DNA from: Acidobacteriota bacterium
Lineage (GTDB): Bacteria; Acidobacteriota; Terriglobia; Versatilivoradales; Versatilivoraceae
Reading direction: 5' to 3'
NCBI GenBank assembly: GCA_022826755.1
Contig: JAJDUG010000027.1
Span: 1 to 64,000, forward strand
DNA length: 64,000 nt
In this document: piece by piece, positions 34,448 through 39,601 of the stretch
How positions within the stretch are numbered: position 1 is the stretch's first letter
How the letters are laid out: each line of letters opens with the position of its first letter
Notes under the pieces: model-generated
Told to the model about the DNA's origin: nothing
Databases searched by the model: none
The model's input: the letters and a program-made list of their open reading frames with translations, nothing else
Made by a program: the position numbers and the translations under genes

Positions 34448-35440
34448 ATGGACAAGGTCAAGGCAGCGGTCATCGGGACGGGCTACCTCGGAAGACAGCA
34501 TGTCCGGGTTCTCTCCCAACTGGCGGACGTTGAGCTCGTTGGAGTGGTGGACAAGAACCTGGAGACGGCACGAGCGGTTGCCGCCGAGTTTTCCACCCGG
34601 GCTTACGACAGTCACCGGGCTCTATCGGATCAAGTCTCCGCCGTGACTCTGGCCACCCCCACTCGGGAGCATGCATCGATCGGCATCGACCTCCTGGCCA
34701 GGGGAGTCGACGTGTTGGTGGAGAAGCCGATCGCCTCCTCGCTGGCGGAGGCCGATGCCTTGATCGAAGCGGCAAGTCGGCGCCGCCGCATCCTGCAGGT
34801 CGGTCACCTGGAGCGCTTCAATCCTGCGGTGTTGGAAGCCCGCAAGTTATTGACGACCCCCCTTTTTTTCGAAGTGCATCGTTTGGGGGTTTTTACCGCG
34901 CGCAGCCTGGATATCGATGTGGTTTCCGATCTGATGATTCACGACCTGGACCTGGTTCTGGATTTCGTCGCCAGCCCCGTGGAACGGGTGAGTGCCGTCG
35001 GCCTGCCCATTTTGACCGACAAGGTGGATATCGCCAACGCCAGAATAGAATTCGCCAATGGCTGTGTCGCCAACGTGACCGCCAGCCGGGTGAGTACCGA
35101 AAAGGTTCGAAAGCTGCGCTTCTTTCAGAAAAACCAATACGTTTCCCTGGACTTCTCGCGGCAGGACGTGGTGGTGCTGAGTGTCGAGAATCGACCGGCG
35201 GGTGAGCCCCCCCTCATTCTGCCTCGCAGGATCGAAACGGCAAGGACGGAACCGCTCAAGGCCGAATTGGAATCATTCCTGGAATCCGTTCGGACCCGGA
35301 GGCCGCCGGCGGTCTCGGCCGAGAGCAGCAGGGCGGCCCTGGCCCTGGCTCATCGGGTGGCAATGGAGATTGAGGAGCACGCCAACAGGCTCTCGCTGCC
35401 TCCCCGGCGGCCCTGGTCGGAAGCAGGTTCCGAATCATGA
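34448..35440 (+). CDS. Gfo/Idh/MocA family NAD(P)-dependent oxidoreductase
   Basis: Predicted sugar dehydrogenase of 330 residues with an N-terminal Rossmann fold (AAVIGTGYLGRQHVRVL) and the conserved VEKPIASSLAEADALI segment. Its place in an lpx cluster right after lpxI recalls GnnA, which oxidises UDP-GlcNAc at C3 for 2,3-diamino lipid A, but the partner aminotransferase GnnB is absent. Related genes of unproven role occur between lpxI and lpxB in other phyla. ATG 34448 is used; a GTG at 34436 is also possible. Its stop overlaps the next ATG. Confidence 0.85.
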   Translation: MDKVKAAVIGTGYLGRQHVRVLSQLADVELVGVVDKNLETARAVAAEFSTRAYDSHRALSDQVSAVTLATPTREHASIGIDLLARGVDVLVEKPIASSLAEADALIEAASRRRRILQVGHLERFNPAVLEARKLLTTPLFFEVHRLGVFTARSLDIDVVSDLMIHDLDLVLDFVASPVERVSAVGLPILTDKVDIANARIEFANGCVANVTASRVSTEKVRKLRFFQKNQYVSLDFSRQDVVVLSVENRPAGEPPLILPRRIETARTEPLKAELESFLESVRTRRPPAVSAESSRAALALAHRVAMEIEEHANRLSLPPRRPWSEAGSES

Positions 35441-36489
35441 AGAAGGACGAACTGCGTTGGTTGTTCTCGCCAGATTCCGAGGAGAAGTCCGGTCAGAGAA
35501 CGCGTGAAGCCTTTCTGATGTCGCTCCTGGCTCACCTGTCGGTTGTCCTCTGGGTGGCATTGGGTCCCGACATCCTGCCAAAACCCCCTCCCCCCGAACC
35601 CGGGGATCGGGACAAAGCCAAACGGCTGGGGTTTCTGGCTCTCCCCAGGGAATATGAGGAAGTCCTTACGGCGCCTCCCGCGGTCAGGCCGAAGGTTCCC
35701 GAGAGAGAGCGGATGCTTCGGCCCCAGCCCCCCAAGGTCAACTCCGAGGCTCTTCGGGTTCCGGTACCCGACCCCGGCCCCAGGGAGGCTGAAAAACCCG
35801 AGACCGCCGCACACTCCGAACCTCCGGACCCCGAGACCGGTTCCTCCGTGCCCCGACCCTCAAAACCGCGACCTCCCGACCCTCAACCGTCGTTGCGCGA
35901 GGAAGCCGATGGGCAATCCGCAGCGCGGAGCCCCGGGGAAACCGGCAGAATCGACTCAACCAGCCCCTTTGCAGCCGCCCCCGAAGAGAGGGCCCTCAAG
36001 TCGAACCTGAAGGATCTCTATGCAGGTTTGCGGCTCCCGGGAGGGACGGCGCCAGGTTCCGAGGTAGGTCGGGGCATCAGTAGCCGGCAAAGCAGGGGAG
36101 GCCCGGGCGATAGTCGGACAGGGGCCGACTTCGGCCGGCGCCAGCCGGACTTCTCGGTGGAGCGTCCCACGATCCTCTCGGATACCCAAGGGGTCAACTT
36201 CGGGCCCTGGTTGACGGCGGTCTATTACAGGGTTCGCAACAACTGGTACTCGGTGATTCCCCAGGTGTACCGCAGCGGGCTCAAAGGGGTGGTGGTGATT
36301 GTGTTCGACGTCCGGAGAAACGGCAGTCTGGAAGATCTGGAAGTCGTGCGCAGCTCCAACTTTTCCCCCTACGATCGGGCGGCGATTTCCTCCCTGAAGC
36401 TTTCGGAGCCGTTGCCCAACTTTCCCGAAGCATTCAAGAAGGATCGTCTCACCCTCCAGTTCACCTATCTCTACAACATCCGCCTCTAG
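35437..36489 (+). CDS. TonB-family energy transducer
   Basis: Envelope-spanning protein of 350 residues: a short cytoplasmic tail, one membrane helix (about 26-45) that contains the TonB SxxxH pattern (S29, H33), a long Pro/Glu/Arg-rich spacer (46-250) and a C-terminal TonB/TolA-like domain (YYRVRNNWYSVIP ... KGVVVIVFDVRRNGSLEDL). It should couple an ExbB/ExbD-type motor to outer-membrane transport or envelope stability. No exbB, exbD or receptor gene is near. It overlaps the preceding gene by 4 nt. Its TAG stop lies inside the left end of a MITE-like element. Confidence 0.82.
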   Translation: MKKDELRWLFSPDSEEKSGQRTREAFLMSLLAHLSVVLWVALGPDILPKPPPPEPGDRDKAKRLGFLALPREYEEVLTAPPAVRPKVPERERMLRPQPPKVNSEALRVPVPDPGPREAEKPETAAHSEPPDPETGSSVPRPSKPRPPDPQPSLREEADGQSAARSPGETGRIDSTSPFAAAPEERALKSNLKDLYAGLRLPGGTAPGSEVGRGISSRQSRGGPGDSRTGADFGRRQPDFSVERPTILSDTQGVNFGPWLTAVYYRVRNNWYSVIPQVYRSGLKGVVVIVFDVRRNGSLEDLEVVRSSNFSPYDRAAISSLKLSEPLPNFPEAFKKDRLTLQFTYLYNIRL

Positions 36490-36613
36490 CCCGCATTTCT
36501 CAACAGGACGCACCTGTTTTGATAGGGACTGTGTCTATTCAATACGTTGTGGGTCCCTTCAGGAAATGGCAAGACAAACCAGGGCATGCCCCCTGGTGAG
36601 AAATGCGGGCTAG
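36486..36613. mobile_element. 128-bp MITE-like element with 22-bp inverted ends
   Basis: The left end CTAGCCCGCATTTCTCAACA and the right end read inward on the other strand are the same over 22 bp with one mismatch. CTAG at both extremities could be a 4-bp target duplication or part of the inverted repeat. The 84-bp core has no coding capacity. The form fits a non-autonomous insertion-sequence derivative; no transposase gene is in the window. The left end contains the stop codon of the TonB-like gene. Confidence 0.75.
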
Positions 36614-36641
36614 CCGGTGGAATGGCTTCCCCTGACAGTCC

Positions 36642-36674
36642 TTGACATTCCTCGCCGGCATTCCTCAATATATG
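36642..36674 (+). promoter_or_regulatory. Possible promoter for trkA-trkH
   Basis: A perfect TTGACA (36642-36647) lies 129 nt before trkA. The nearest -10-like words are CAATAT at 18-nt spacing and TATATG (36669-36674) at 21-nt spacing, neither ideal. It is the only strong -35 in this gap. Confidence 0.35.
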
Positions 36675-36776
36675 TTCAGGGTGTGACACTACCTTTCAAA
36701 TCCGGAGAGTTGTGCTCGACTCCAACCAGGCAGACGTCTTGTTGCTGGTGATCTTCCCAAGACATTTCTCAAGGCC

Positions 36777-38153
36777 ATGAGGATCCTGATTGCCGGGGGC
36801 GGACAGTCCGCTTCGCTCGTTGCCACGCGCTTGATTCGCGAGGGTAACGAGGTGGTGCTGGTTGAGGAGAACCCGGACCGCTGCCGTCAACTGGAGGAAA
36901 CGCTGGATGCCAAGGTGATTCAGGGCAACGCCGCCAGCATACGTGTTCTGCACGAGGCGGATATTCGCAACGCCGAAATGCTGATTGCGCTGACCAGCGA
37001 GGATCAGATCAACGTCCTGGTTTGTCTGATCGCTTCGGTGGAGTCCGACGTGAAGTTCAAGGTGGCGAGGCTCCGCACACACGAAGTCAACTACTGGAGG
37101 AGAATTCTCCAAAGAGCCGGACTGCACATCGACCTGATCATTCACCCGGAGACCGAGATTGCCGACCGCATCTTGCGCGTGGTGCGCCTGCCCGGCGTCT
37201 CCGACGTGATCGACTTTGCCGAGGGTCGGGTGAAACTCTTTGGGATGAATATCGATGAGACGAGCTGGGTTGCCTACAAGACGGTCGAGGACCTGGACCG
37301 CGCCGGGCCGCCCAAGAATTCTCTGATTGCCCTTATATTCCGGGGGCAACAGGTCATCGTTCCGCATGGAGCCGAGGCTCTGAAACCGGGAGACCATGTC
37401 TACATCGTCACCACGGCCGACGAACTGGAGCCCGTGTGTCAGTTCATGGGGCTTCAAACACAGGAGTCCCTCGACCGGGTCTACATTGTGGGAGGCAAGC
37501 AGGTAGGCATCCGGGTGGCCGAATTGTTGGAACCCCGGGGTGTGACGGTAAAACTATTCGAGCGGGACATCGCCCGCTGCGAAAAGATTTCCCAGATACT
37601 TCGCAAGACGGTTGTCCTCCACGCGGACGGTACCGACGAATCGATCCTGGCGGAAGAGAACATCAAGGGCGCGGGAGCGTTCCTGGCCATGACCAACGAT
37701 GACGAGGACAACCTCATCGCTTCCCTGCTGGCTCGCAAGCTGGGTGCAAAAAAAGTGGTGGCCCTCATCAATCGGCTGAACTACCTCCCCATGGCGCAGC
37801 GTCTCGGCATCAATACGACCGTCAGCCCCCGCCTGGCGGCGGTCGACCGAATTCTCCAGTTTGTGCGCAAGGGTCGGGTGCTCTCGGTGACCACGTTTCG
37901 CGAGGAGGAGGCCGAGGCGATCGAGTTGATTGCGGCCGAAGGCTCCAAATACGTCGGCCGAAGCCTGCGAGAGGTCCGCCTACCCCGCGGCGCCATCGTT
38001 GGCGCCATCGCTCGGCCCAACGGCGAGGTGGTGGTCCCAAGGGGCGAAGCCACCATTCAGGCGGGAGACCGGGTCATCTTCTGTACCCTGGAGAGTACCG
38101 TTCCGCTGCTTGAGTCGGCCTTCCTGGCCGAAGCCCGAAGGGAATGGGTGTGA
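36777..38153 (+). CDS. trkA: Trk potassium uptake regulator TrkA
   Basis: Cytoplasmic NAD-binding subunit of the Trk K+ channel, 458 residues, built from two tandem RCK_N/RCK_C units. The first Rossmann motif is ILIAGGGQSASLVATRL and the second (near residue 238) VYIVGGKQVGIRVAELL. The second lacks the canonical second glycine pattern. The TrkA_C domains are near 145-225 and 375-455. It overlaps trkH by 10 nt. Confidence 0.95.
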   Translation: MRILIAGGGQSASLVATRLIREGNEVVLVEENPDRCRQLEETLDAKVIQGNAASIRVLHEADIRNAEMLIALTSEDQINVLVCLIASVESDVKFKVARLRTHEVNYWRRILQRAGLHIDLIIHPETEIADRILRVVRLPGVSDVIDFAEGRVKLFGMNIDETSWVAYKTVEDLDRAGPPKNSLIALIFRGQQVIVPHGAEALKPGDHVYIVTTADELEPVCQFMGLQTQESLDRVYIVGGKQVGIRVAELLEPRGVTVKLFERDIARCEKISQILRKTVVLHADGTDESILAEENIKGAGAFLAMTNDDEDNLIASLLARKLGAKKVVALINRLNYLPMAQRLGINTTVSPRLAAVDRILQFVRKGRVLSVTTFREEEAEAIELIAAEGSKYVGRSLREVRLPRGAIVGAIARPNGEVVVPRGEATIQAGDRVIFCTLESTVPLLESAFLAEARREWV

Positions 38154-39601
38154 TACGGCCCGCTGCCCTCGGTTATATCCTGGGCCAGTTCCTGTTGGCT
38201 CTCGGTGGCACCCTGCTGGTTCCTCTGGCCTTCAGCCTTTGGAGTCATGGCGGTCCGGCTCCGCTGGCCTATGCCGCCGTGGTCACCGCCGGAACCGGCA
38301 GCGCCCTCTTCTTCGGCCTTCCTCGCCCCTCCACGGACTTGAACCGACGCGAGGGGCTGCTGCTGGTCTTTTGCGTATGGCTGGCGGTGAGCTTTTTCGG
38401 CGCTCTGCCCTTCTACTTCTCTCCCGCCTACTTCTCCAGTTTCACCGACGCGTTCTTTGAAGCCACCTCCGGGTTTACGGCGAGCGGGGCAACCATTCTC
38501 AGGGATATCGAGAGCCTGCCCCGGGACCTGCAGTTCTGGAGGTGCTTCTCCCATTGGCTGGGAGGCATGGGGATTGTTCTGCTCGGGATTGCCATTCTGC
38601 CCCTGCTGGGTATGGGTGGGATGGCGTTGTATCGGGCCGAGTTTTCAGGAGCCAGGTCGGAAAAGCTCAAGCCTCGAATCGCTCATACCGCCCAGGCCCT
38701 TTGGAAGATCTATGTTTTCTTGACCCTGGCGGAGTACGTGGCGCTGCGCTGGGCCGGAATGGATCCTTTCGATGCCTTGTGCCATTCCTTCTCCACGGTG
38801 GCTACGGGAGGGTTTTCAACCCGAACCGCCAGCGTCGGGGCATTCGACAGCCCCCTGATCGAATGCATCATTGTCGCGTTCATGTTGCTGGGAAGCATCA
38901 ACTTCACTCTGCACTACCGTCTTTGGGTGGAACGTCGTCCCAGGCGATTTATTTCCGATTTCGAGCTGCGGACGTTGCTTTTCATTGTGTTCTCGTCCAG
39001 CCTTGTGATCGCTGCCATCCTGGCTTTGAAGAGCGGTTACGCTCCGGCATTGGCCTTCAGAAGGGCCCTCTTTCAGGTGACGGCCATCACCACCACCACC
39101 GGCTTTACCACCGACAACTTTGCCCAATGGCTGCCCCTGCCGCAGTTGATCCTGCTGGCGCTCATGTTTATGGGGGGATGTACCGGATCGACTTCAGGAG
39201 GGCTGAAGACTTCTCGAATGGTCTTGCTCTACAAGGTGGTGATTCGCGAATTCGAACGCATGGTCGAGCGCCGAGGCGTATTCGCGGTCCGCGTGGGCAG
39301 AGGGGTTATTCCTGAAACGGCCGTCCGCAGCCTTTTGAATCTGGTCTATCTTTCCTTTCTGGTCAACTTCCTGGGTTGCATCCTGCTGGCGGCCTCCGGC
39401 GTGGATGTGTTCACCAGTATCGCCGCCGTGGCCGCGGCCATGTTCAACATCGGTCCCGGATTGGGGAACGTGGGGCCAGTCGAGGGCTATGGGGGGCTGC
39501 CGGCTTTCGCCAAGTGGGTTCTGAGTTTCTGCATGCTGGCCGGGCGCCTGGAGTTCTACACGGTGCTGGTCATTTTCACTCCCGCCTTCTGGCACAAGTA
39601 A
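38144..39601 (+). CDS. trkH: Trk/Ktr potassium transporter membrane subunit
   Basis: K+-translocating membrane protein of 485 residues with four pore-loop repeats. The selectivity-filter segments are ATSGFTASGAT, STVATGGFSTRT, TTTTGFTTDN and FNIGPGLGNVGP. The conserved GCTGSTSGGLKTSR precedes the last repeats. It is coupled to trkA by overlap and together they form a complete uptake system. The 234 nt that follow hold no recognisable feature. Confidence 0.96.
   Translation: MGVIRPAALGYILGQFLLALGGTLLVPLAFSLWSHGGPAPLAYAAVVTAGTGSALFFGLPRPSTDLNRREGLLLVFCVWLAVSFFGALPFYFSPAYFSSFTDAFFEATSGFTASGATILRDIESLPRDLQFWRCFSHWLGGMGIVLLGIAILPLLGMGGMALYRAEFSGARSEKLKPRIAHTAQALWKIYVFLTLAEYVALRWAGMDPFDALCHSFSTVATGGFSTRTASVGAFDSPLIECIIVAFMLLGSINFTLHYRLWVERRPRRFISDFELRTLLFIVFSSSLVIAAILALKSGYAPALAFRRALFQVTAITTTTGFTTDNFAQWLPLPQLILLALMFMGGCTGSTSGGLKTSRMVLLYKVVIREFERMVERRGVFAVRVGRGVIPETAVRSLLNLVYLSFLVNFLGCILLAASGVDVFTSIAAVAAAMFNIGPGLGNVGPVEGYGGLPAFAKWVLSFCMLAGRLEFYTVLVIFTPAFWHK

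Follow-up and report, generated by a model that had tools for sequence, protein, structure and literature searches.

A 120-bp element on the stop codon of a TonB-like gene in an acidobacterium is very probably a MITE of IS1380 type

The DNA analyzed here (the window) is a stretch of 64,000 nucleotides, positions 1 to 64,000 of contig JAJDUG010000027.1 from an Acidobacteriota bacterium (GCA_022826755.1). Its forward strand carries a gene for a TonB-like protein of 350 aa (35437-36489; Pfam TonB_2 and TonB_C) and, downstream on the same strand, a trkA-like gene (36777-38153). A TrkH-type cation transporter (PF02386, E 5.8e-70) follows the trkA-like gene at 38144-39601 and makes up a potassium-uptake pair with it. 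The sole match in an inverted-repeat scan of 36300-36800 lies at 36486-36613, between the TonB-like and trkA-like genes. An earlier note, made from the sequence of the window, had described near-perfect 22-bp inverted ends around an 84-bp noncoding core, with CTAG at both extremities and the TAG stop of the TonB-like gene inside the left end, and this description proved accurate throughout. The ends (36486-36507 and 36592-36613) have 21 of 22 bases in common, exactly 84 bp without a listed ORF lie between them (36508-36591), CTAG is present at both edges, and the stop codon (36487-36489) is part of the left one. The element proper comprises 120 bp of the forward strand (36490-36609), bounded by 18-bp terminal inverted repeats at 36490-36507 (CCCGCATTTCTCAACAGG) and 36592-36609 (CCTGGTGAGAAATGCGGG) that differ by one mismatch. 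The outer tetramers are a 4-bp target duplication; the TonB-like gene ends on the left copy (36486-36489), and the right copy lies at 36610-36613.

Folding of 36486-36613 as RNA gave -59.7 kcal/mol, compared with a mean of -36.9 for shuffled sequences (z -6.25; none of 200 shuffles as low), and the opposite strand gave a z of -6.41. The G+C content of the element is 52.5%, versus 61% for the window. It is short, has terminal inverted repeats, and contains no transposase gene, as is usual for a MITE. A described RNA family was rejected as an identification, there being no Rfam 15 covariance-model match for the window copy or for three loci with long copies (E up to 1 and 0.5). An intrinsic terminator was likewise rejected: a stem followed by a T run is absent on the strand of the gene, and the one match is on the other strand, with 0.5 expected.

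Paired with the trkA-like gene, the TonB-like gene could be located in six of the seven genomes of the genus, the host genome included; G005 gave no match. The nearest relative, G006, has an empty site with the junction CGCCT-TTAG-CCGGTGGAATGG, where the window reads CGCCT-CTAG-[120 bp]-CTAG-CCGGTGGAATGG. The empty site that the earlier note had proposed to look for thus exists and confirms the target duplication, but its single tetramer is TTAG rather than CTAG. The element is also absent from the TonB-trkA spacer of G002, G003, and G004. In G001 (L226) this spacer is ∼158 bp longer than in G003, G004, and G006 and bears no resemblance to the element; it is possibly another insertion near the same stop codon. 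It had been suggested that the insertion trimmed or replaced the 3′ end of the TonB-like gene, and this is not borne out, since all six orthologous proteins terminate in NIRL-stop, whether or not the element is present. The common ending and the single tetramer at the empty site indicate that the insertion doubled the tetramer bearing the stop and changed no amino acid.

The search for further copies, also proposed earlier, revealed a dispersed family with many members. BLAST with the 128 bases against the host genome returned 147 pieces at E up to 10, and the 13-bp end motif, with at most one mismatch, occurs 124 times in this 4.6-Mb genome (61 forward, 63 reverse) versus twice for a reversed-pattern control. 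Several copies are located at the ends of contigs, where repeats that interrupted the assembly would be expected. The element had been set apart from the dispersed repeat family; it is indeed the only copy of its kind in the window, but is itself a member of a large dispersed family. An exact 15-mer of the end is present in 7/7 genomes of the genus, in 0/5 others of the family, and in 7/49 others of the class. A contig scan with a 21-mer across taxa found at least 119 stretches, mostly from Gammaproteobacteria (going by record titles) among the matches listed, which also included Acidobacteria, Verrucomicrobia, Planctomycetota, Alphaproteobacteria, and Aminicenantes. No DNA resembling the 248-bp copy in L006 was found in the plasmid and phage collections. 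At two loci of the survey, L075:945-1810 (C61 of the host genome) and L049:1331-1500 (C24), group II introns start immediately behind the element end TAGCCCGCATTTCTCA, a pattern that would fit targeting of the hairpin end by the intron; they match Rfam RF02003 with 82.2 and 77.8 bits, respectively, and L075 also matches RF00029.

The flanks over all copies are mainly CTAG, followed by TTAG, CTAA, and TTAA. Perfect duplications were observed in 8 of 28 copies of the host genome, compared with 2.6 in shuffled pairings of the flanks (9 of 5000 as high), and in 40 of 72 copies of an external set, compared with 27.2 (0 of 5000 as high); the external loci were fetched by a pattern starting with TAG, which biases one flank and is answered in part by tetramer matching and by the pairing shuffles. 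The 22 long copies of the host genome taken alone showed no excess (3 perfect, 1.6 expected; 930 of 5000 shuffles as high). Orthologs of two genomes have identical imperfect flanks, which indicates that they are old or were imperfect from the start. In many long copies, for example L010, L284, and L275, the imperfect side is often exactly CTCG (CGAG on the left), again in common with orthologs. At one CTAG, G003 and G006 carry elements of opposite orientation and different subfamily, apparently two independent insertions.

Two size classes are evident among the stretches of the host genome that have both ends. Of 32 such stretches 28 were kept (4 catalogue rows, of lengths 80, 93, 178, and 756, were left out), 6 of them 120-128 bp and 22 of them 240-244 bp long. 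In the long class, conservation extends over ∼130-140 bases of one side but not over the ∼80 of the other, with a mean pairwise identity of 0.88 versus 0.55 over 32 representatives; L005, L246, and L258 are examples of 240-bp copies with the variable left ∼80 bases. RNAalifold predicted 56 pairs for these representatives, and 97.4% of the cells can pair. Both sides of a pair have changed in 46 cells, where shuffles gave 17.4 and slid controls no more than 10. Pairs showing a double change number 6, which does not exceed the shuffles (102 of 500 as high), so the case for covariation depends chiefly on a small number of pairs that covary strongly. The 240-bp form can be described as a foldback in which the core is conserved and covaries and the arm varies greatly. 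Template switching between the arms of a palindrome could yield compensatory changes without selection.

The conserved core hairpin is missing from the window copy as well as from its short relatives, and the noncoding core of the window copy corresponds to the variable-arm half of the family. At 36582-36596 of the forward strand (GGGCATGCCCCCTGG), alignment places the junction of a probable deletion that would have removed this hairpin, ∼115 bp in the 240-bp form. CATGCCC is found at both edges of the missing part, and two different junctions occur among the short copies. The alignment suggests that the short form arose by deletion between these short direct repeats, the 120-128-bp form probably deriving from the 240-bp foldback by loss of the core hairpin. 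At a site shared with G003 and G005, the left arms of the short copy of the host genome and of the long copies differ, and so this site shows no simple deletion in place.

The ends of the element are those of IS1380 elements. A complete insertion sequence of 1738 bp was identified at L209; its ends read CCCGCATTTCTCACCAGG and CCCGCATTTCTCACCACC, and it is flanked by CTAG on either side (the contig stops there). It encodes a transposase of 471 aa that matches PF13701 (E 1.3e-156) and NCBIfam transpos_IS1380 (405.8 bits, cut-off 180). Intact IS1380-family elements of other bacteria, 1.66-1.74 kb long, have the same CCCGCATTTCTCACCA-type ends and duplications of CTAG, TTAA, or TTAG, and the search for a full insertion sequence with matching ends was thereby answered in bacteria outside the genus. 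Perfect 4-bp duplications (CTAG, TTAG, or TTAA, all YTAR) flank 13 of 16 full-length copies; the 16 comprise 8 copies from one genome, the copy at L209, and 7 with two usable ends among 24 loci. Plasmid pKF715A of Pseudomonas putida carries an annotated IS1380 transposase within an element of 1655 bp that shares the ends and is bordered by CTAG at left and right; another plasmid insertion sequence (L348) showed no convincing pair of ends. IS1380 transposases are present in 82 plasmid records, with up to 60.7% identity among the matches listed, and a relative of L209 in 31 of 200 genomes of the class (E up to 1e-40). In the host genome such an element survives as a 756-bp remnant at C65:2058-2813, with a truncated transposase gene inside the same ends. 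Neither this genome nor the other six of the genus, where only fragments were found, yielded an intact transposase with such ends, so the transposase that moved the window copy is known to family, not to gene. The genus likewise yielded no direct parent copy. On visual comparison, agreement between the MITE and the insertion sequence is confined to the terminal ∼18 bp, and the relation evident from this is one of ends rather than of internal sequence.

The earlier proposal that the element is MITE-like has been substantiated: additional copies exist, complete insertion sequences share its ends, and a relative has the site unoccupied. The element is very probably a non-autonomous transposable element (MITE) of IS1380 type. 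A putative IS1380 transposase acting in trans would have mobilized the element and inserted it at a staggered cut in CTAG, and repair would then have doubled the tetramer. Because the tetramer contains TAG, the TonB-like gene would have regained its stop codon at once. The strong fold might also be that of a plain long hairpin, a terminator or REP-like palindrome formed in situ and immobile, but dispersed copies, empty site, and target duplication all contradict this, and it is scarcely tenable. REP/REPIN palindromes are not known to duplicate their target, and the 4-bp duplication sets the element apart from them. An IS5-type MITE resembling MITEPsy1, which is of similar size and likewise duplicates CTAG or YTAA (PMC3189936), is also very improbable: the end sequence of MITEPsy1 (Table 3 of that paper) differs from the present CCCGCATTTCTCACC ends, and both transposases that were scanned from the interval between the present ends belong to IS1380, their matches including no IS5 model.

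The position on a stop codon is not peculiar to the window copy. In the genus, 15 of the 28 insertions outside genes are on a stop codon, where 6.16 would be expected from tetramer-matched intergenic controls (P ∼1e-4); in other bacteria the figures are 13 of 33 and 3.98 (P ∼6e-5). This corresponds to 2.4-3.3 times the matched expectation. Insertions inside genes are few, 2 of 30 in the genus (11.9 expected) and 2 of 35 in other bacteria (16.9 expected). Only insertions with perfect duplications were counted (30 of 79 independent sites in the genus and 35 of 61 in other bacteria), by their left copy and with orthologous insertions merged, which reduced 148 sites to 140. Left out were 11 of 159 sites less than 150 bases from a locus end, as well as L092 and 7 duplicates of genus members among 76 external loci. 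Genes were called by a codon-usage script written for the analysis rather than by a standard caller. The orientation of the element relative to the gene is not clearly biased, 18 gene ends being at the conserved arm and 11 at the variable arm.

Most likely, stop codons are over-represented as harmless YTAR sites in DNA that is otherwise dense with genes, and selection for harmless sites is the simplest reading. Beyond this, the excess relative to matched intergenic sites would allow for a hairpin at the gene end being tolerated or beneficial; one that is short and lies just behind a stop codon seems to be tolerated or mildly useful. The excess could also reflect true targeting, in which the transposase prefers stop codons or gene ends beyond the tetramer itself, and the one CTAG apparently struck twice independently would fit such a preference. 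However, the stop of an ORF with 120 codons or more is occupied by 26 of 65 MITEs with perfect duplications and by only 1 of the 16 full-length insertion sequences, which have the same target tetramers (Fisher P 0.015; the insertion sequence sample is small, unmatched, and from other genomes). The insertion sequence does not visibly share the preference, and true targeting is decidedly unlikely. The same comparison, together with the excess in both data sets and the pairing of the 240-bp foldback kept by compensatory changes, would favor retention of the element behind stop codons for its use there, as a portable 3′ end whose hairpin stabilizes or insulates the mRNA. Set against this are the size and origin of the insertion sequence sample, the unclear orientation preference, the lack of an intrinsic terminator on the strand of the gene, and the missing conserved core of the window copy, and such a use is unlikely overall, if still to be taken seriously. 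A broader picture, somewhat more speculative and also unlikely, is that of a self-spreading 3′ untranslated region common to distant phyla and harmless by design: the target tetramer spells a stop, and each landing would double the stop and add conserved, self-complementary RNA 3′ of it.

MITEs that duplicate CTAG or YTAA are already known. MITEPsy1 of Pseudomonas syringae is 100 nt long and has inverted ends of 18 nt. It targets CTAG or YTAA, of which 4 nt are duplicated, and was demonstrated to insert into a trap plasmid; its authors suppose that it derives from ISPsy2 (PMC3189936). It shares with the present element the small size, the length of the ends, and the 4-nt duplication at CTAG, but the end sequences are unrelated, and a stop-codon bias, as seen in the present family, is absent from the available description. 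IS1380-family insertion sequences (NF033539) of the clade examined here have the same ends and YTAR duplications, whereas the window element has no transposase. IS1247, another member, is listed with a duplication of 5 bp (PMC3281130), compared with 4 bp in this clade. In ISPsp10 (PMC4133298) the target TA(A) supplies the stop of the transposase ORF of the element itself, whereas here the duplicated tetramer restores the stop of the host gene. Elements of the eukaryotic piggyBac superfamily, found in animals, have 4-bp duplications of TTAA type and ends mostly starting with CCC, and IS1380 transposases serve as the outgroup in the paper on that superfamily (PMC10813416); a link would rest on analogy and on this choice of outgroup. 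The main text of a review of prokaryotic MITEs (PMC10969869) returned no hit for the terms IS1380, stop codon, or CTAG, and no report of an IS1380-derived MITE, of a stop-codon bias of MITEs, or of the present end sequence was found in the open-licence literature searched.

A hairpin is here linked to a transposase family known by name, and its exact empty site is available. The family also offers a case in which the effects of selection and of target choice on the places where small mobile elements persist can be measured. A use of the element at 3′ ends becomes testable through the excess relative to matched sites. If the siting on stop codons does reflect such a use, these elements would represent a bacterial route to ready-made 3′ untranslated structures.
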